NCBI GenBank assembly: GCA_001768515.1
Contig: MEOA01000021.1
Coordinates: 62,001-126,000, forward strand
DNA: 64,000 bases
Direction of reading: 5' to 3'
Source: Bacteroidetes bacterium GWE2_42_24
GTDB lineage: Bacteria > Bacteroidota > Bacteroidia > Bacteroidales > TTA-H9
Made by a program: the position numbers and the translations under genes. Shown one piece after another: positions 2,595 to 59,365 of the stretch. A model generated the notes under the pieces. The model was not told where the DNA came from. It made no database searches and saw nothing but the letters and a program-made list of their open reading frames with translations. Numbering within the stretch: position 1 is the stretch's first letter; every line of letters begins with the position of its first letter.

Positions 2595-3065
2595 TTATTG
2601 GGTTTTAAGTTTAACGAAAATCTTTTGATGATCGATTTTTACAATTTCTATTTCAATACGCTGGTCAATAAAACCAGACAGGCTGTGAACCTCATAAAGT
2701 TCACCATTGATTCGGGCCTTACCGGCAGGTGCCAGCCTGGAGATGGTTTCACCTGTCTCACCTGGTTTAACCTTTGCAGCATCCACCAGATTCACTTTGG
2801 AGTCGATCGTATCATTGAGCATCAGACGCTTCCATGTCCGCGATTTCAAAGAGAAATAGAGAGATGCTATGGCACCGACAAGGGTTGAAAAGGTAACAAT
2901 CACACCGACCGTTGTACCATACCCGGCCCATGCCTGCCAGATGCCAATACCAATGGCAATAAAACCGAGAACCCCGGCAACCGATGTACCCGGAATAACA
3001 AGAATTTCAAGCACCAGAAGTAACAATCCGGTAACAATCAGTAGAATGATAATGGTAAGTGACAT
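2595..3065 (-). CDS. NfeD-family membrane protein (short form)
   Basis: Short NfeD (156 residues) without the ClpP-like protease domain of long NfeD proteins. Three hydrophobic segments (about residues 4-24, 27-48, 52-72) precede a soluble C-terminal beta-barrel (OB-fold) of about 70 residues containing GETGETISRLAPAGKARING. The family works with flotillin-like proteins in membrane organisation; here floA follows after 6 bases and clpS precedes by 9 bases, so one operon is likely. Confidence 0.9.
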   Translation of the reverse strand: MSLTIIILLIVTGLLLLVLEILVIPGTSVAGVLGFIAIGIGIWQAWAGYGTTVGVIVTFSTLVGAIASLYFSLKSRTWKRLMLNDTIDSKVNLVDAAKVKPGETGETISRLAPAGKARINGELYEVHSLSGFIDQRIEIEIVKIDHQKIFVKLKTQ

Positions 3066-3454: not shown

Positions 3455-4132
3455 ATGAGCAAACAGGGATACATCACTGACAATAAACACCTTATTAATG
3501 ATCACTTCGTTGACAGCCTCAGGGATTCTTTTGCCAGGGGCTTACCCGGACTGTCAGCACAACTAAGGATGTCGCCTCCTTCCAGAGAAATTCTTATGCA
3601 GAACCCTAAGCACCACCATCCACCAAGAAAGGCCGCCGTTTTGATCGCCTTATTTGAAAGCAAAAACGAATTACATACACTCCTGATTACCCGCAATGAA
3701 TACCCGGGAATCCATTCGGGACAAATAGCTTTCCCCGGAGGCAAATATGAGCCTGCCGACAATAGCCTTATTCAAACCGCTTTAAGAGAAACTCATGAGG
3801 AAGTGGGCATCGCGCAAGAGTACATCGAGACCATAGGCTGCCTGACCGAGTTATACATACCACCCAGCAATTTCAATGTAACACCCGTAGTTGGCGTTCT
3901 GCGACAACTACCCAATCTGTTACCCGACGAGAATGAAGTATCGAAGATCAACATCATAAGCCTCAAAGAGCTTTTCGCTCCTGCAACCAGAAAACTTTTA
4001 CAAATCGACACGCCTGTCGGCAAGATGGAAACACCGGCCTATTGCCCCGACGGACTCATTATATGGGGAGCCACTGCAATGATAATAAGCGAACTGCAAC
4101 AACTCTGGCTTGGGTTCTCTGAGATCTTATAA
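3455..4132 (+). CDS. Nudix hydrolase, CoA pyrophosphatase (NudL) type
   Basis: Predicted to cleave CoA or related nucleoside diphosphate derivatives. The Nudix box is visible as GGKYEPADNSLIQTALRETH followed by EEVGI (about residues 97-121), preceded by HPPRKAAVLIALFE and followed by the conserved IPPSNFNVTPVVG segment characteristic of the CoA pyrophosphatase group. Length 225 matches the family. It is divergent from clpS with a 110-base shared intergenic region; the ATG at 3455 leaves room for a promoter. Confidence 0.9.
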   Translation: MSKQGYITDNKHLINDHFVDSLRDSFARGLPGLSAQLRMSPPSREILMQNPKHHHPPRKAAVLIALFESKNELHTLLITRNEYPGIHSGQIAFPGGKYEPADNSLIQTALRETHEEVGIAQEYIETIGCLTELYIPPSNFNVTPVVGVLRQLPNLLPDENEVSKINIISLKELFAPATRKLLQIDTPVGKMETPAYCPDGLIIWGATAMIISELQQLWLGFSEIL

Positions 4133-37125: not shown

Positions 37126-39138
37126 ATGAAGATCATTGATGAGGCTAAGATCAATGTTACCCATATATACCTGGCTCAGCTGCATAAATACGGATATGTG
37201 GACTATGTGCTAACTGTCAATTTCGACAATTTGATGCTCAGAGCCTTATCGCTGTACAATATATTTCCGGCGACATATGATATGGTAATATTGAAAGACC
37301 TGACAACAACCACGTTCAAGGAAAAATCAGTAGTCTTTTTGCATGGTCAGCATCATGGATTATGGTTACTCAACACTCCGGAAGAGATGGAGAAAGTAAA
37401 AGATACTGTCCCCAGGATATTTGAGAAAATAACTAATAATAGACCCTGGATATTTATCGGATACAGTGGTTCAGACCCAATATTCGAGCACGTAAAAAGG
37501 TTGGGGCGGTTTGACAATGGGTTGTTTTGGGTAGGCTACGGTAATAATTCACTCAGCTCAAGCGTCCAGAAATTTTTGACAACTCCATGCACAAATGCCT
37601 ATTACATTAAGGGATATGATGCAGATGCTTTTATGTTGAAACTAAATGAATTATTAAGCTTGCCCCAACCAGAAATATTGGAAAAGCCCTTTTCATCTTT
37701 AAAAGCCATGTTATGTGGGATTAATGACATTAACGATGAAGAGAATTTCAAAGGGGTAAAAGAGCGGCTGGAAATATCGAAAAAAAATATAGAAAAATCT
37801 ATCAGGCAATTTGAAGAAAATAAGTTGGTAATCGTTGACGAAAATGAATTAGTAATTGACAAATTGAAGAAAGAAATCATTGGAATAATAATAGCTGAGA
37901 CTTATGACAAGCAACAAATTACTACCATTGAGAAAAAGGCTATGACCATCAATGATGCAAGTGTTAATAGTCAATTATCATGGTTGTATTTGAGTTGGGG
38001 AAATTATATAGCTGACCTTGCAAAGACAAAGGAAAGCAAAGACGTAGATGACCTTTTCCGGCAGGTATTTGAAAAATTCCAAAAAGCCATTGAGATAAAA
38101 CCAGACTTGTACGAAGTATTTAATAATTGGGGGAGCAATTTAGGAAACCTTGCAAGGACAAAAGAAGGCAACGTGGCAGAGGACTTTTACCGACAGACAT
38201 TTGAGAAATTTCAAAAAGCCATCGAGATAAAACCAGACCTGAATGAAGCATTCATAAACTGGGGAATTTGTTTAGGAGACCTTGCAAAATCTAAAGAAGG
38301 CAATGAAGCAGATAACCTATACCTGCAAGCATTTGAAAAATTTCAAAAGGCCATTGAGATCAAACCAGATATGCACGAAGCATTCCATAACTGGGGAACT
38401 TATTTAGGAGACCTCGCAAAGACAAAAGAAGGCAAAGAGTCGGATGACCTTTACAGGCAGGCATTTGAGAAATTCAAAAAGGCCATTGAATTAAAACCAG
38501 ACAAGCACGATGCATTCATAAATTGGGGCATTTATATAGTGAACCTTGTAAAGAGCAAAGAAGGCAAGGAGGCGGATGATCTTTACCTGCAGGGATTTGA
38601 AAAATTCGAAAAAGCCATTGAGATAAAGCCAGTCAACCACGAAGCATTTTACTACTGGGGAATACTAATAGGGAACCATGCAAAGTCTAAAGAAGGCCAT
38701 GAGGGAGAGGAGCTTTATAGGCAATCACTTGAAAAATTCCAAAAAGCCATTGAGATGAAACCAGACATGCATGAAGCATTCTTAAACTGGGGAAATTATT
38801 TAGGAAACCTTGCCAAAACAAAAGAAGGCAAAGAGGCAGATGATATTTATCGTCAGGCAATTGAGAAATATCAAAAAGCCATCAAGTTTGGTGGAGACCA
38901 CTATAATCTTGCCTGCCTGCATGCCATAAGAGGGAATAAAACAGAAGCAATGCATCACTTAAATATTAGTCTCGAATCGAAAGTTATTTCTATTGATTTT
39001 GTAATTAAAGATTGTGATTGGCAGGGCTATTTAGAAGATAAACAGTTTAAATCACTCATTGATAAATTCGGAAATGAGATAAAGAAGATTAGCCAATTAA
39101 TAGCGCTTAAACACACCGACACTCCAACCTCTTGGTGA
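37126..39138 (+). CDS. SIR2-like domain C-terminal part with TPR-like repeat array
   Basis: Continues the SIR2-like fold in the frame of the preceding fragment: VLTVNFDNLMLRAL, VVFLHGQHHG (candidate catalytic His) and FIGYSGSDPIFE. A linker (about 190-290) leads to seven 44-residue TPR-like repeats (FEKFQKAIEIKPD...EAFxNWGxxLGDLAK) encoded by a 132-bp period DNA repeat, then a short C-terminal domain (LACLHAIRGNKTEAMHHL). SIR2 proteins of this kind are NAD-depleting anti-phage effectors in known defence systems. Without the first 82 residues this part lacks the GAGAS loop, so function depends on readthrough or association of both pieces. Confidence 0.82.
   Translation: MKIIDEAKINVTHIYLAQLHKYGYVDYVLTVNFDNLMLRALSLYNIFPATYDMVILKDLTTTTFKEKSVVFLHGQHHGLWLLNTPEEMEKVKDTVPRIFEKITNNRPWIFIGYSGSDPIFEHVKRLGRFDNGLFWVGYGNNSLSSSVQKFLTTPCTNAYYIKGYDADAFMLKLNELLSLPQPEILEKPFSSLKAMLCGINDINDEENFKGVKERLEISKKNIEKSIRQFEENKLVIVDENELVIDKLKKEIIGIIIAETYDKQQITTIEKKAMTINDASVNSQLSWLYLSWGNYIADLAKTKESKDVDDLFRQVFEKFQKAIEIKPDLYEVFNNWGSNLGNLARTKEGNVAEDFYRQTFEKFQKAIEIKPDLNEAFINWGICLGDLAKSKEGNEADNLYLQAFEKFQKAIEIKPDMHEAFHNWGTYLGDLAKTKEGKESDDLYRQAFEKFKKAIELKPDKHDAFINWGIYIVNLVKSKEGKEADDLYLQGFEKFEKAIEIKPVNHEAFYYWGILIGNHAKSKEGHEGEELYRQSLEKFQKAIEMKPDMHEAFLNWGNYLGNLAKTKEGKEADDIYRQAIEKYQKAIKFGGDHYNLACLHAIRGNKTEAMHHLNISLESKVISIDFVIKDCDWQGYLEDKQFKSLIDKFGNEIKKISQLIALKHTDTPTSW
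38030..38890 (+). repeat. Seven 132-bp tandem repeats encoding 44-residue TPR-like units
   Basis: The string AAAAAGCCATTGAGAT recurs at about 132-base intervals (38080, 38212, 38344 and onward). Units differ by scattered substitutions and are in frame with the SIR2-TPR gene, so unit number could change by recombination. Confidence 0.85.
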
Positions 39139-51232: not shown

Positions 51233-52309
51233 ATGAAAAATAAAAATCACATTTCTAAACTCAGAATTAAACTTTATCAAGAGAAGTTAGAACGTCTCAA
51301 GAGAAAATCAGCAAGTAAAAAGCGGTTACAGAATATAGCAAATAACAAGAGAGTTTCTTCTATTAGAGAAACAAAACATAAAAATGAAAGTCTATTTAAT
51401 CAACCCAAAGAAGCTACTGTATCATCAAAATCAGATTTTACTCTATTAGATTTTCCTGAGAATGTTCTTTCATTCATAAAAATGGTTGACGAAGTAACTA
51501 AGAAAAAGAAATATAAGACTATCTTCTTTGACATATCTCAAGTCACAAGTATTGACATTGGGTCAATCGGATTACTTTTGTCTAAAATAAATGAACTTTC
51601 AACGGTTGGAATAAAGGTTAAAGGTAACTTCCCTGAAAATGCCCCATGCAAGAAGATAATATGTGAATCAGGTTTTTTATCTCATATGAATGACATGAAA
51701 GGACGTAGGTTTAATTATTTAAGAGGCGAAAGTAATCTTATGGTCAGTAGAGGATTCGATAGAACAAGTAATGTTTTAGTAGGTTCTGCAATAAGGAAGG
51801 CGGTAAAGCATCTAACTGGTGTTGATGAGAGTTATAGGCCTTTGTATAGCCTTGCACAAGAAATGTGTGCTAATTCGGTAGAACATGCAAATGAACATCA
51901 CCACTCGAAGAACTGGCTGTTTTCCGTTACGTATAAAAATGCAGATACAGTATGCTTTACTATGACTGATATTGGACGTGGAATTTTGGGAACTTTGAAG
52001 CGAAAAGCCTCACAGATAATTAAAGAAGTTTTGCTTTCAGATGATAAAGATATATTAGGCAGGGCATTTGATAAGCAGTACACTTCTAAAACAAAAGATA
52101 TTAACAGAAATAAAGGATTACCCAAAATTAAATCAATTGCTGACAATAATTTTATCAACAATTTTGTTGTAATTACTAACAATGTACTTTTAGATTTTTC
52201 AAATAACAATAACTCGAAGTTATTAAATAAGAAATTCGATGGAACATTTTACTATTGGGAATTAAATAAAAAATGCATAGAAACATGGAAAATAAGAAAA
52301 TCACAATAG
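51233..52309 (+). CDS. STAS + GHKL-ATPase fusion protein (cargo operon gene 1)
   Basis: 358 residues, AT-rich. A basic N-terminal helix (1-60), a STAS-like domain (about 65-155: KTIFFDISQVTSIDIGSIGL, with Ser in the anti-anti-sigma phospho-site region) and a GHKL/HATPase domain (about 185-330: MCANSVEHANEHHH N-box, TDIGRGILG G1 box, NKGLPKIKSI G2-like). STAS and GHKL kinases usually sit on separate partner-switching proteins; here they are one chain. The gene overlaps the DUF4325 gene by up to 37 bases, so the products are made together. Function unknown; regulatory kinase or sensor of a defence unit is an inference. Confidence 0.82.
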   Translation: MKNKNHISKLRIKLYQEKLERLKRKSASKKRLQNIANNKRVSSIRETKHKNESLFNQPKEATVSSKSDFTLLDFPENVLSFIKMVDEVTKKKKYKTIFFDISQVTSIDIGSIGLLLSKINELSTVGIKVKGNFPENAPCKKIICESGFLSHMNDMKGRRFNYLRGESNLMVSRGFDRTSNVLVGSAIRKAVKHLTGVDESYRPLYSLAQEMCANSVEHANEHHHSKNWLFSVTYKNADTVCFTMTDIGRGILGTLKRKASQIIKEVLLSDDKDILGRAFDKQYTSKTKDINRNKGLPKIKSIADNNFINNFVVITNNVLLDFSNNNNSKLLNKKFDGTFYYWELNKKCIETWKIRKSQ

Positions 52310-52722
52310 CCGTAATGGATTACTCAAAAAGCCCTGGGCCAAGATACAGTGCGCAAGGAGATGATTCTGGTGAGGATTTTTATCACAAAATCCTTAATGA
52401 GAAATTTAAATATGCCTGCGACAATAAATTAGATATAGAAATTAATTTAGATGGACCAGATGGTTATGCATCATCTTTTCTTGATGAAGCATTTGGAAAT
52501 CTTGTTTTCGATTTTGGGAAAGAAGATGTTAAAAATCGAGTTACAATCATTTCAAATGAAGAACCTGAATGGATTGAGATGATTATAAATGAGACATATA
52601 ACGAATGGGAAGAAAGACGCATTGCAAATGATACCCCAACGAAAACAGCAAAACACGAGGCTTGGTGGCGATTAAATTATAATAATTTATTGAGTAAGGA
52701 AGAATGGGTATGCAGCATTTAA
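52273..52722 (+). CDS. DUF4325 STAS-like protein (cargo operon gene 2)
   Basis: 149 residues (or 145 from ATG 52285). RYSAQGDDSGEDFYHKI, INLDGPDGYASSFLDEAFGN and RVTIISNEEPEWIEMIINET match the DUF4325 STAS-like pattern; the S-F-L-D-E-A-F segment corresponds to the helix start where STAS proteins carry their phospho-Ser/Thr. It is coupled to the neighbours by 37- and 19-base overlaps. It probably docks on the GHKL protein encoded just upstream. Confidence 0.8.
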   Translation: MHRNMENKKITIAVMDYSKSPGPRYSAQGDDSGEDFYHKILNEKFKYACDNKLDIEINLDGPDGYASSFLDEAFGNLVFDFGKEDVKNRVTIISNEEPEWIEMIINETYNEWEERRIANDTPTKTAKHEAWWRLNYNNLLSKEEWVCSI

Positions 52723-53207: not shown

Positions 53208-53262
53208 TCTTAAAATTCTATTAAACATTATATTCAACGATCTTGTATGCTATAAAAATTAA

Positions 53263-53352
53263 TTGATTTTCGCCAAAACTGTATTACTCTTGACCTATTT
53301 ATAGTCTATAAACCGTTAATCCAAGCTAAGAACATTGATTTTTTCACTATAA
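53263..53352 (+). promoter_or_regulatory. Repeated promoter/leader element, copy 1
   Basis: TTG at 53263, 19-base spacer, TACTCTTG (one mismatch to the -7 consensus), then AAGCTAAGAACATTGATTTT about 30 bases later. CCAAAACTGTATTA and the distal AAGCTAA...ACATTGA block are shared with copies 2 and 3. It precedes the TIR gene. Confidence 0.7.
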
Positions 53353-53490
53353 CGAGAGCTAATCGATGAGTTTAGAATTTTGTACTGATATAAAACCAGC
53401 TCAGATATGAAACCCTGATTTAGCAATATCCTTGGTGAATAAATAAACATGTTTTAGCAACACAAGAAAAATCAACAAAATATAAACAAT

Positions 53491-54529
53491 ATGACATCGA
53501 CAACAAGGAAAAAAAACTGGAACAAACAGTGAAAAAATATCGACAGAATCTTCGGCTACTAAAACAGCCAATCCTTTGGTTTTCATAAGCCACGACACAA
53601 GAGATGCTGAACTGGCAGAAGAATTTAGCAATCTTCTAAAAAGTGCAAGTGCCGGTGGTCTAAAATCATTTCGTTCATCTGACAAAAAAGGCGCACAAGG
53701 AATTGAATACGGTTTGGATTGGTATCCTGCTATTATGGGAAAAATTGACGAAGCATCAGATGTTATTTGTCTTTTAACTCAACATAGTGTTGAGAGACCA
53801 TGGATACTATATGAAGCAGGTGTAGCTAAAGGGAAATTAGACAAAAAAGTAATTGGTATTGCAATGGGGATTCAGCATAGCATTGCATTTACAGGCCCTT
53901 TTGCGCAGTTCCAAAATAATGACGGATCTGTTGAATCAATAACAAAGCTAGTTATTGACTTAGTTAACAAGGTGCCTGGACTAGATCCAGAAAGAAGTTT
54001 TGTTGAGCAACTTGTGAAAGGGTTTCATGAAAAATCTGAGGAAATTATCTCAAATTATGTTGTGCCTTCAACACCAGTAGTACAAGAGACAAGCGATGTT
54101 ATGGTGGCAAAATTATTTGAAGAAGTCAAGATTATGTTTGAAAGATTGCCATCAAGAATTGATAACAGGATTGACCAAAATAATAGAAGAATAAATACGA
54201 AAAAGAACCTTGAGATCATTGATGAAAGTATGCATATTGCGATGAGGTCGCCTAATTCTGGCCTTGGATTTCTAATGGTGATTAGTTTTTTTAAGGATGA
54301 ATTTCCATGGGTTTATGAAATCGGTCTTGACACTTATCGTGGCGTTAAAAGAGCTAAAAATGATACCGAAAAGCAATTACTAATTGCCGATTTTAACGAA
54401 GTAATTGGACTTCTCGAACATCCGGTGATGCTAAAATTCTATGAGAATACTGAAAGTAGGTACCAACTAAGTAAAGCGTTAAAATACAATGTACACCGTT
54501 TCTTCAGCAAATTTATTAGTAGTGATTAA
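53491..54529 (+). CDS. TIR-domain protein, 5' end out of frame across an A8 tract
   Basis: The unbroken frame starts only at a TTG (53576), right inside the TIR fold (LVFISHDTRDAELAEEF). An ATG at 53491 opens a good N-terminus (MTSTTRKK) that shifts at AAGGAAAAAAAAC, where losing one A would join both parts. TIR domain about 30-140: ISHDTRDAELAEEF, SDVICLLTQHSVERPWILYE with the Glu expected for NADase activity, and a GIAMGI strand. The C-terminal ~170 residues are helical and unrecognised. TIR NADases are abortive-infection effectors in many defence systems. It could be slippage-expressed, inactivated, or a homopolymer sequencing error. Confidence 0.8.
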
Positions 54530-55558: not shown

Positions 55559-55592
55559 AAGCCCCCACTCTGTGCTTTTCGATTTCTCTTCC

Positions 55593-55690
55593 CCCAACTG
55601 TTAAAATTCCCAAAAACTGTTGACTTTCTCCAAAACTGTATTATCTTTGTCGCAAAGCTATAATTCAACACATTGATTTGCAGTTTTTTA
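55593..55690 (+). promoter_or_regulatory. Repeated promoter/leader element, copy 2
   Basis: CCAACTGTTAAAATTCCC, then TTG at 55620-55622, 19-base spacer, TATCTTTG (55642-55649), then a diverged distal block (AAAGCTATAATTCAACACATTGAT). A perfect Bacteroidota promoter. It precedes the Panacea-type pair. Confidence 0.82.
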
Positions 55691-55822
55691 ATTAACCATT
55701 CGTTAGTTAATCAGGTTTTTGCTGAATTCGAGGTAGCATGATACTTGCATATGAAAAACGGAAATGGAAAAGAGCAAAAAATCTACTTTATAGTTATTAA
55801 ATTTAGATTAATTCATACAGAT

Positions 55823-56272
55823 ATGGTTTACAATGTTTTAGATATCGCAAACAAAATTTTAGTTCAACCTTTGAAATCTGAAGGAGATGAATTAATAACA
55901 AACATGAAACTTCAAAAACTGCTATACTACATGCAAGGATTTCATTTAGCGCTGTTTGACGGAAATCCCCTCTTTGATGAAGAAATCGAAGCCTGGATGT
56001 ATGGTCCTGTTGTTCCATCTATGTATAGGCATTTTAGTAAATACACTAATAATGGAATAAAGCCAGATGTTTTGTTAGACCAAGTAATCTCGTTAACTAA
56101 TGATGAAGAAGCATTATTTAAAGAGGTATTTAGGGTTTATGGAGCCTATTCGGCTATTGGGTTAATGCAATTAACTCACTCAGAAGAGCCTTGGAGTTCT
56201 GTCAGTACCGGGCAAGGGTCTATCATAACTAAAGATGTTATGACCTCCTTCTTTAAAACACGTTTCAAGTAA
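55823..56272 (+). CDS. Panacea-domain (SocA-like, DUF4065) antitoxin
   Basis: 149 residues from the ATG at 55823 (MVYNVLDIANKI). Panacea motifs: NMKLQKLLYYMQGFHLALFD, EEIEAWMYGPVVPSMYRHFS and the C-terminal GLMQLTHSEEPW segment. These proteins act as antitoxins for unrelated toxins in PanAT systems. The next gene starts 2 bases after the stop, the spacing of a toxin-antitoxin pair. A longer frame upstream (from 55745) would add a poor 26-residue tail and is not preferred. Confidence 0.88.
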   Translation: MVYNVLDIANKILVQPLKSEGDELITNMKLQKLLYYMQGFHLALFDGNPLFDEEIEAWMYGPVVPSMYRHFSKYTNNGIKPDVLLDQVISLTNDEEALFKEVFRVYGAYSAIGLMQLTHSEEPWSSVSTGQGSIITKDVMTSFFKTRFK

Positions 56273-56274
56273 GT

Positions 56275-56709
56275 ATGAAAAGGAAAAAAACCGAACCACA
56301 CCAGAACAGATTTGAAATAAAAGAGCCTGAAAAATCAACCCAAATTAATAAAGCTGATCTTCATGATGAAGACAACTATCCTTTATTCTGTTTCAAGTAC
56401 TTAAGCGATCGCTCATTTAATAAATGTCGTGATCATCAGTTCTTTATTAAGTATTTAAAGCGACTTCAAAGCCTCTCAAGTTTGGGATGGGCAAAGATCA
56501 GAGAATCGGACAAACATTCATTTGGAATGGAAAAGATTCCGATTCGTGAGATAAAACCTAATTGTCCAATTTGCGTTACACCAGATGTTACTCACCTTCA
56601 TGCCTTTAGGGCGATCGGAGACAATCGGCCGTTTCTTGGTCTGCAAAATGGTCGTGTTTTCCAAGTCTTCTTTATAGAAACACATTTCGGAGACATCTAT
56701 GATCACTGA
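56275..56709 (+). CDS. Putative toxin of the Panacea pair
   Basis: 144 residues. A charged N-terminal arm (1-40) precedes a small alpha/beta domain (FIKYLKRLQSLSSLGWAKIR, then a C-terminal GLQNGRVFQVFFIETHFG strand-rich end). I do not recognise the family, though the fold hints at a RelE-like ribonuclease. Function as a toxin is inferred from the tight pairing with the Panacea gene. Confidence 0.65.
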   Translation: MKRKKTEPHQNRFEIKEPEKSTQINKADLHDEDNYPLFCFKYLSDRSFNKCRDHQFFIKYLKRLQSLSSLGWAKIRESDKHSFGMEKIPIREIKPNCPICVTPDVTHLHAFRAIGDNRPFLGLQNGRVFQVFFIETHFGDIYDH

Positions 56710-56769
56710 TATCAGAATCTTTATATCTTCCAAATCTAACATTCGACTCAAGTATTCTTTTCCCTCTCC

Positions 56770-56886
56770 CCCAACTGTTGAAATTTCCTAAAAGTAGTTG
56801 ACTCTCTCCAAAACTGTATTATCTTTGTACTGTCCTTAGTCTACCATCCGCCAACACAAGCTAAGTACATTGAGTTTTTACTATAA
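56770..56886 (+). promoter_or_regulatory. Repeated promoter/leader element, copy 3 (structural operon promoter)
   Basis: CCAACTGTTGAAATTTCC, TTG at 56798-56800, 19-base spacer, TATCTTTG (56820-56827), then AAGCTAAGTACATTGAG. It shares its 5' half with copy 2 and its 3' half with copy 1, and drives the structural block. Confidence 0.82.
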
Positions 56887-56890
56887 GGGG

Positions 56891-56967
56891 AAACCCCTTG
56901 CGTTCCTTCCCGGGCAACCGGGAAACTCCTTGGCGGGAGTGGTAGGCGGCGCAAGGGGTTTTTTCTA
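56891..56967 (+). ncRNA. Three-way-junction leader RNA with U-tract (attenuator or antiterminator-like)
   Basis: AAACCCCTTGCG (56891-56902) pairs perfectly with CGCAAGGGGTTT (56950-56961). The enclosed loop holds TTCCCGG-GCAA-CCGGGAA (56907-56924, a GNRA tetraloop) and ACTCC/GGAGT (56925-56940). T's follow the closing stem, as in a terminator. It lies between promoter copy 3 and the first structural-block gene, 15 bases before its start. Confidence 0.7.
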
Positions 56968-56981
56968 TAGGAGAATAAACA

Positions 56982-57338
56982 ATGAGTCCCAAAACGAACG
57001 AGGTCACCCTCCCGACCACAATCAACATTGAGCGCCTGCACGCCCTCAGAAACCTGATCGTAAACCATCGGATGCTCGATTCCGATACTTACGATTTCAA
57101 AGAAACCCCCATCACCGAAACCCTGAAAATGCTGCTGCATGTTTTCATGGAAAGCGACTGGCCAACGATTGTCACTAAAAATGACCGCTCAGCCATCGAC
57201 GATCATTTCTGGATGGCTTATGACACTGCAAGCTACATCGAGCATCTGGACGACCCATCTGACGAGAAAGACACAATGCTGATGACCATCGACCAGTTGA
57301 TACAACTGGTAACCCAATTACAGGAGGAAGCATCATGA
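56982..57338 (+). CDS. Phage protein, first gene of the structural block
   Basis: 118 residues; TTINIERLHALRNLIVNHRM and a helical C-terminus (TIDQLIQLVTQLQEEAS). GGAG-like bases 9 bases before the ATG. Not recognised. It overlaps the next gene by 4 bases. Confidence 0.65.
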   Translation: MSPKTNEVTLPTTINIERLHALRNLIVNHRMLDSDTYDFKETPITETLKMLLHVFMESDWPTIVTKNDRSAIDDHFWMAYDTASYIEHLDDPSDEKDTMLMTIDQLIQLVTQLQEEAS

Positions 57339-57529
57339 ACCAGACAAATGAAAAACCACGTTTCTTCCGCAACAACAATTACATCGATCTGCCACAGAAC
57401 CGTACCATCGAGCCGGGAAGCCTATGGAAAGAAACCGACGGCATGATGATCCTGGTTGATGACGACGATTTTGTTTGCATCAGTCCTTACAAGGCTGATG
57501 ACTTTAAAGAAGTTCAGCCTAGGGAATAA
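57335..57529 (+). CDS. Small phage protein
   Basis: 64 residues, ATGA overlap with the previous stop. Contains FFRNNNYIDLPQNRTIEPGS and an acidic patch VDDDDFVCIS. Not recognised. A terminator follows. Confidence 0.6.
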   Translation: MNQTNEKPRFFRNNNYIDLPQNRTIEPGSLWKETDGMMILVDDDDFVCISPYKADDFKEVQPRE

Positions 57530-59313: not shown

Positions 59314-59365
59314 GTGTCCTTTTGCTTTGGTTTTCAGGTAATCATTTTTGCATCAAAATGTGAAT

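Follow-up and report, generated by a model that had tools for sequence, protein, structure and literature searches.

A predicted two-state transcription attenuator with a three-way-junction terminator in the leader of a Bacteroidales phage operon

The DNA analysed here, hereafter the window, is a 64,000-nt stretch of contig MEOA01000021.1 (positions 62,001 to 126,000, forward strand) from the assembly of Bacteroidetes bacterium GWE2_42_24 (GCA_001768515.1). At 56891-56961 it encodes a three-way-junction RNA, in which a 12-bp outer stem encloses two hairpins, one of them capped by GCAA, and is followed by a T-run, just as an earlier interpretation made from the letters alone (the sequence-only reading) had described it. 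The element begins 63 nt downstream of a promoter site and ends about 20 nt before the ATG (56982) of the first gene of a block of genes in a prophage, with AGGAG at 56969-56973 standing ahead of that reading frame (Table 1). The promoter site is of the Bacteroidota type, TAnnTTTG being the consensus described for sigma-ABfr of B. fragilis (PMC7366714), and we infer that transcription starts at about 56832. The predicted terminator therefore lies within the leader, between the promoter and the first gene. A protein search for close relatives of the first gene (56982) found none; the second gene is 29.5% identical over 44 aa (tblastn E 0.001) to its counterpart behind a homologous element on another contig (L062). 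A head protease gene at 59348 is read in the same direction as the element, and the term 'structural block' that the sequence-only reading had applied to the downstream genes is right for this window.

Table 1. Promoter, leader segments, RNA helices and first downstream genes, in window coordinates.
Feature	Position	Strand	Basis or remark
Bacteroidota-type promoter site (TTG at 56798, TATCTTTG at 56820-56827)	56798..56827	+	Sequence; box resembling TANNTTTG in all members
Leader segment a (CTACC), partner a' (GGTAG)	56841..56845	+	Hypervariable; complementary in 12/12 members
Leader segment b (CCGCCAA), partner b' (TTGGCGG) in the P3 loop	56848..56854	+	Changed together with b' in G370, L093, L128 and L062
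Mini hairpin AAGGGG-AAA-CCCCTT of the predicted antiterminator state, holding the P1 5' arm	56885..56899	+	Prefix folds, 10/10 members tested
Predicted terminator stem P1, 5' arm AAACCCCTTGCG	56891..56902	+	98.6% of cells paired, 6 pairs changed on both sides (helix 1, nine members)
Hairpin P2, TTCCCGG-GCAA-CCGGGAA, GNRA loop (GCAA)	56907..56924	+	Fold; stem covaries, loop kept in all members
Hairpin P3, ACTCC-TTGGCG-GGAGT	56925..56940	+	Fold; 4/6 pairs changed on both sides
b' (TTGGCGG)	56930..56936	+	Pairs with leader segment b
a' (GGTAG), junction strand between P3 and P1	56941..56945	+	Pairs with leader segment a
Predicted terminator stem P1, 3' arm CGCAAGGGGTTT	56950..56961	+	Sequence, fold, covariation
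T-run of the predicted intrinsic terminator	56959..56964	+	Sequence; GGGGTTTT or longer in every member
Shine-Dalgarno region TATAGGAG	56966..56973	+	TATAG pairs with CTATA 56881-56885 in the completed hairpin
First gene of the block (118 aa, no family match)	56982..57338	+	ORF
Second gene (64 aa)	57335..57529	+	Weak relative of the second gene behind the L062 element

The outer stem, P1, consists of 12 perfect pairs and is prolonged toward the junction by a T.G and a C-G pair, while the loop of the second hairpin (TTGGCG, 56930-56935) supplies most of the segment b' discussed below. Folded alone, the element has a minimum free energy of -43.2 kcal/mol, whereas its dinucleotide shuffles average -27.9 +/- 3.1 (z -4.9, with 0 of 200 shuffles as low), and with its flanks it reaches -53.1 kcal/mol (z -6.1, again 0 of 200). 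In the comparison of folding energy with shuffled sequences proposed by the sequence-only reading, the structure is thus far more stable than expected. P1 is rich in G+C and the U-run follows it directly, an arrangement typical of intrinsic terminators that is kept in all homologues. Both features would fit an ordinary intrinsic terminator whose role is to shield the block from cargo genes ahead of it. The second stem and any leader pairing would then be incidental, and the upstream genes at 55745 and 56275 do look like cargo. This explanation is nevertheless very improbable, since in all members of the family the element lies behind its own promoter and just before a Shine-Dalgarno sequence, the leader pairing is maintained by compensatory change, and two copies 600 bp apart in a single genome (L079) each stand behind a promoter of their own.

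Homologues were gathered in several ways. A covariance model of the window's single sequence (R1) was run against 393 genomes of the order and had a single strong match, G370 (E 4.9e-7, 39 bits), which has the same layout as the window and whose leader pairs likewise, with different bases. A scan of IMG/VR with the pattern GGGGAAACCCYN{40,70}GGGGTTTTT, its matches being scored with R1, yielded L063, L064, L065 (= L069), L070, L073 and L062 (= L074). Scanning genomes added the two copies in Bacteroidales bacterium UBA4073 (L079) and re-found G370 (= L057) as Bacteroidetes bacterium X3_MetaBAT.13, and two further patterns gave L093 and L128. The leader helix described below was not part of any pattern by which these members were selected. 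The resulting 12 distinct members, the window and 11 others from Bacteroidales genomes and IMG/VR phage contigs, are a lower bound, as finding members by pattern misses divergent ones. The others are 65-75% identical to the window over leader and element, and all members share a Bacteroidota-type promoter site, with the TANNTTTG-like box comparably placed in 12 of 12, followed by two hairpins, one of them with a GNRA loop, and by a U-run that immediately precedes phage genes.

When built without the window, the model (R2) recovers the window in its own genome at 71.8 bits (E 3.6e-15). Strong R2 matches were limited to two of 388 genomes of the order (the window's own and G370) and, among 355 genomes of the class, to the window's own genome, which suggests that the element is rare and phage-borne. 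The weak R2 matches in class and order genomes that we inspected were ordinary single-hairpin terminators or coding sequence. A second viral pattern, CCGCCA/CTTGGCGG, produced no additional true member, most of its extra matches being coding sequence; the element was absent at distant relatives of a 545-aa capsid-region protein, and searching a phage collection with the element's DNA returned chance matches only. Neither the window nor nine family loci contain a match to an Rfam family that reaches its gathering score; near the element, the best of the weaker matches have 13-18 bits, where 35-67 would be required. The RNA and its homologues make up a family of phage leader RNAs that had not been listed before.

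A DNA search found the element as a single copy in its own genome. This bears on the idea of a mobile repeat of the MITE or REP kind, in which the 12-bp arms would be terminal inverted repeats and the flanking TTTTTxCTATA sequences direct repeats. Imperfect repeats do flank the element, and a related promoter cassette at 53255-53353 lacks it, but with one copy in the genome and every other member at the same position between promoter and Shine-Dalgarno sequence, we rejected this origin as exceedingly unlikely.

The homologues show the covariation that the sequence-only reading had put forward as a check. Across nine members, the window excluded, 13 of the 28 pairs of the terminator fold have changed on both sides, and 97.6% of cells are paired, compared with 86.1% in shuffles (0 of 500 equal the alignment); no slid version of the alignment comes near. 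The loop of P2 is a GNRA tetraloop in every member, as GCAA, GAAA or GUAA.

A second set of pairs joins the terminator region to two segments of the leader, a and b. Segment a differs in nearly every member and is always complementary to the strand behind P3 (GTGAAA:TTTCAC, GAGTC:GACTC, TTCGA:TCGAA, CGTCAAA:TTTGACG, CGTCA:TGACG, GTACG:CGTAC, TCGAAC:GTTCGA, CTTAGA:TCTAAG, GTTCC:GGAAC, CGATA:TATCG and TGTTC:GAACA, with CTACC:GGTAG in the window). The b:b' pair is usually CCGCCAA:TTGGCGG, and its variants are again complementary (CGACCAA:TTGGTCG in G370, TCGCTAA:TTAGCGA in L093, CTGCGA:TCGCAG in L128 and TACGAG:CTCGTA in L062). This leader helix is present in 12 of 12 members, with b and b' 72-75 nt apart in the ten members measured. 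Nine of its 12 pairs have changed on both sides (0 of 500 shuffles; ten members, with segments picked by eye). No permutation of leaders among members paired as well as the true combination in either of two runs (0 of 100,000 and 0 of 200,000), and the same was found for swaps of whole leaders with no hand-chosen sites (0 of 200,000). L128, obtained after the rule was fixed, obeyed it.

Two comparisons were less discriminating. Scored by minimum free energy alone, 47 of 90 leader swaps keep at least 5 pairs; this is a weak test because short complementary runs are common, and the permutations are the relevant ones. In the window itself the duplex is only moderately unusual, being equalled by 1-2% of shuffles and 8% of phage 56-mers, so homologues are needed and the case rests on the family.

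A conserved helix that cannot be nested with the terminator stem is the expected mark of an attenuator. The sequence-only reading had named an attenuator as one option while overlooking that a leader stretch (56841-56854) is complementary to parts of the element, that a mini hairpin can form and that the stem runs on into the Shine-Dalgarno region; that option is now strongly supported by a covarying alternative helix that crosses the terminator stem and by a predicted switch in every member. When window prefixes are folded from the putative start, the leader helix (a-a', b-b') together with the mini hairpin is best until the 3' arm of P1 emerges, and the best fold flips to the three-way junction at 56962. 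All 10 members tested together have the leader helix and mini hairpin in the prefix and P1 in the complete leader, and L128 and L062 give the same predicted switch from leader helix to P1. The mini hairpin outlasts an indel in L093 and L128 (GGGAAAACCC). Once the U-run is complete, the terminator is the more stable fold, by 1.9 kcal/mol in the window and by up to 10.8 kcal/mol in other members. Direct refolding barriers are estimated at 13-30 kcal/mol, values that are upper bounds from path searches and not kinetics; if the barrier is high, the outcome would depend on which fold forms first or on a factor.

The program used for these folds, ViennaRNA, does not model pseudoknots, and by it mutually exclusive states are indistinguishable from a leader helix that coexists with P1. 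Since the terminator fold leaves a' single-stranded and most of b' in a loop, the competition between the two folds is mostly topological. The leader could then be part of a single pseudoknotted structure, with a and b docked into the junction strand and the P3 loop while P1 is closed, and the compact GNRA fold could serve as a binding site for a phage protein, RNA polymerase or a ligand. Regulation would then work by stabilising or masking the fold and not through exclusive states. With a' single-stranded and six of the seven b' bases in a loop, leader pairing would disrupt almost nothing; the linker between a and b is about equal in length to the 3' strand of P3, and every member retains the GNRA loop on a stem that covaries. 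Such a structure, however, has no need of the conserved self-complementarity of GGGGAAACCC, and prefix folding completes the leader helix at lengths that still lack the 3' arm of P1. We regard a coexisting pseudoknot as possible, though not probable. An extension of it, which we offer as a rather doubtful conjecture, is that the leader helix combines with the three-way junction and the GNRA hairpin into a single aptamer-like pseudoknot. Such an RNA would represent a new class of regulator in phages, sensing a phage protein (for example, the antirepressor-like product encoded downstream in many members) or a metabolite and so timing the operon at both transcription and translation.

The interpretation that we prefer, with a probability of roughly 0.8, is that the RNA acts in cis, from the 5' leader of a phage operon, as a two-state (bistable) attenuator of transcription. 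Computationally, the leader has two alternative folds, each conserved by compensatory change and each crossing the other, with promoter, U-run and Shine-Dalgarno sequence in place. From these we infer termination at the U-run, antitermination by the leader helix, masking of the Shine-Dalgarno sequence and dependence on a signal, as follows. Transcription would initiate at the TATCTTTG promoter and the leader would emerge first; segment a would pair with a' in the junction strand and segment b with b' in the P3 loop, and GGGGAAACCC would close on itself as the mini hairpin. The arms of P1 would thus be held apart, no terminator would form, and RNA polymerase would run into the operon. If the leader helix were unmade or removed, P2, P3 and the long P1 would form and transcription would stop at the U-run. 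A signal, which may be a phage protein, a ligand, the ribosome or polymerase speed, would decide between the states.

The predicted hairpin continues beyond the U-run, where CUUAAU pairs with AUUAGG (in the window, CUAUA with UAUAG). In folding, the Shine-Dalgarno sequence is at least partly paired in all 10 members that have one, its pairing partners differing in the window and in L073. In transcripts that read through, the hairpin would reach over part of the Shine-Dalgarno sequence and hinder translation as well, a possible second output of the attenuator.

The switch might instead be operated by a ribosome on a translated leader ORF, starting at an ATG directly after b and reading through the junction to the Shine-Dalgarno sequence. 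Such an ATG is present in nine of ten members with a standard leader, the window being the exception; most of those members have no stop in this frame up to the end of the U-run, the peptide often reading MF..TFNLIGETL..., and short ORFs resembling attenuation leaders have been reported from 5' UTRs of Bacteroides (PMC7366714). But an ORF of this kind is not found in every member: the window and L062 have no ATG there, and frames differ among members, one L079 copy (L079b) stopping early and the other (L079a) using another frame. Peptide conservation, moreover, is confined to bases already fixed by the RNA structure, and we consider ribosome-controlled attenuation unlikely.

The attenuator proposed here resembles those of the trp and riboswitch types in having an intrinsic terminator in a 5' leader before the first gene, an alternative helix upstream and a fold preference that switches as the transcript grows. 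It is unlike them in having a three-way junction with a GNRA hairpin as its terminator, in a leader that pairs with an apical loop and a junction strand and not with an arm of the terminator, and in a hairpin that extends to the Shine-Dalgarno sequence. In lambdoid phages, the late promoter pR' is followed by a short leader terminator, tR', which is overcome by the antiterminator Q, and then by a large block of genes. The likeness to the present locus (phage promoter, short leader terminator, large gene block) is one of position only; the DNA site bound by Q is located in the late promoter region (PMC6606751), whereas the information conserved here lies in RNA pairing. The put RNAs of HK022, to which the sequence-only reading had likened the element as an RNA acting on polymerase, are about 70 nt long and consist of two stem-loops; they bind RNA polymerase and, needing no protein factor, overcome terminators further downstream (PMC9378689). 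The element is likewise a phage leader RNA of about that size behind a phage promoter, but it contains the terminator of its own transcript, in the form of a three-way junction followed by a U-run where put has two stem-loops and no terminator of its own, and the comparison finds no support in its anatomy. The action of put on downstream terminators goes through the zinc-binding domain of the polymerase beta' subunit.

To our knowledge, little is known about the timing of gene expression in phages and prophages of Bacteroidota, and a literature search found no leader attenuator described for them. The present family is a concrete case of a predicted RNA switch: its two folds are defined, 12 variants occur naturally, and for the leader helix nature has supplied compensatory mutants. 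The family makes the regulation of these phage operons directly testable with small constructs. It may also offer a natural two-state control of expression for engineering Bacteroides.

In the other members the element stands before an operon that opens with small genes and, usually, an antirepressor-like gene, and continues into portal, tail or tape-measure genes. Most of them encode, just downstream of the element, an antirepressor-like protein with a P22_AR_N match (Pfam E 1e-26 to 1e-32; PHROG 'anti-repressor Ant'). G370 and L070 have nearly identical terminase (98.6%) and portal (96.9%) proteins and differ in their leaders and first genes, and on this basis leader and first gene, or cargo, seem to be exchanged as a module.

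Several members carry additional features around the leader. An extra 5' hairpin lies upstream of b, near the putative transcription start, in L063, L064, L065, L070, L073, L093, L128 and G370 (examples being CATTCAG...CTGAATG and CAAACAGG...CCTGTTTG); it seems to covary, and it is absent in the window, L079b and L062. The two attenuator copies of L079, at 2969-3064 and 3567-3662 and about 600 bp apart, each follow a promoter-like site, and the second has no Shine-Dalgarno sequence. On phage contig L089 (1420-1535), the leader sequence CCCGCCAA can pair with TTGGCGGG, which forms part of a single-hairpin terminator ahead of a gene; this is possibly due to chance, since the pattern required those words, or could be a simpler analogue of the attenuator.

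In the window, promoter cassettes of 65-98 nt that are 74-80% identical occur at 53255-53353, 55586-55650 and 56764-56889, preceding, respectively, the region of a TIR gene, a pair of genes with a Panacea antitoxin, and the structural block. The first and third cassettes have leaders that are homologous over about 98 nt, but in the first there is no three-way junction and b is degenerate (CCGTTAA). Recombination between copies of the promoter may have brought in the cargo. The TIR-domain protein (53576-54529; Pfam TIR_2, PADLOC TIR-TM) is likely a defence or cargo gene, and so is the pair, which consists of a SocA/Panacea antitoxin and a partner of PHROG 8366, a candidate toxin (55745-56272 and 56275-56709). 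On the phage side of the window, a weak match to a STAS/ATPase protein is followed by a DUF4325 (STAS-like) protein (51233-52722), and a SIR2-like protein with TPR repeats, likewise a likely defence or cargo gene, is encoded outside the late block at 37126-39138.
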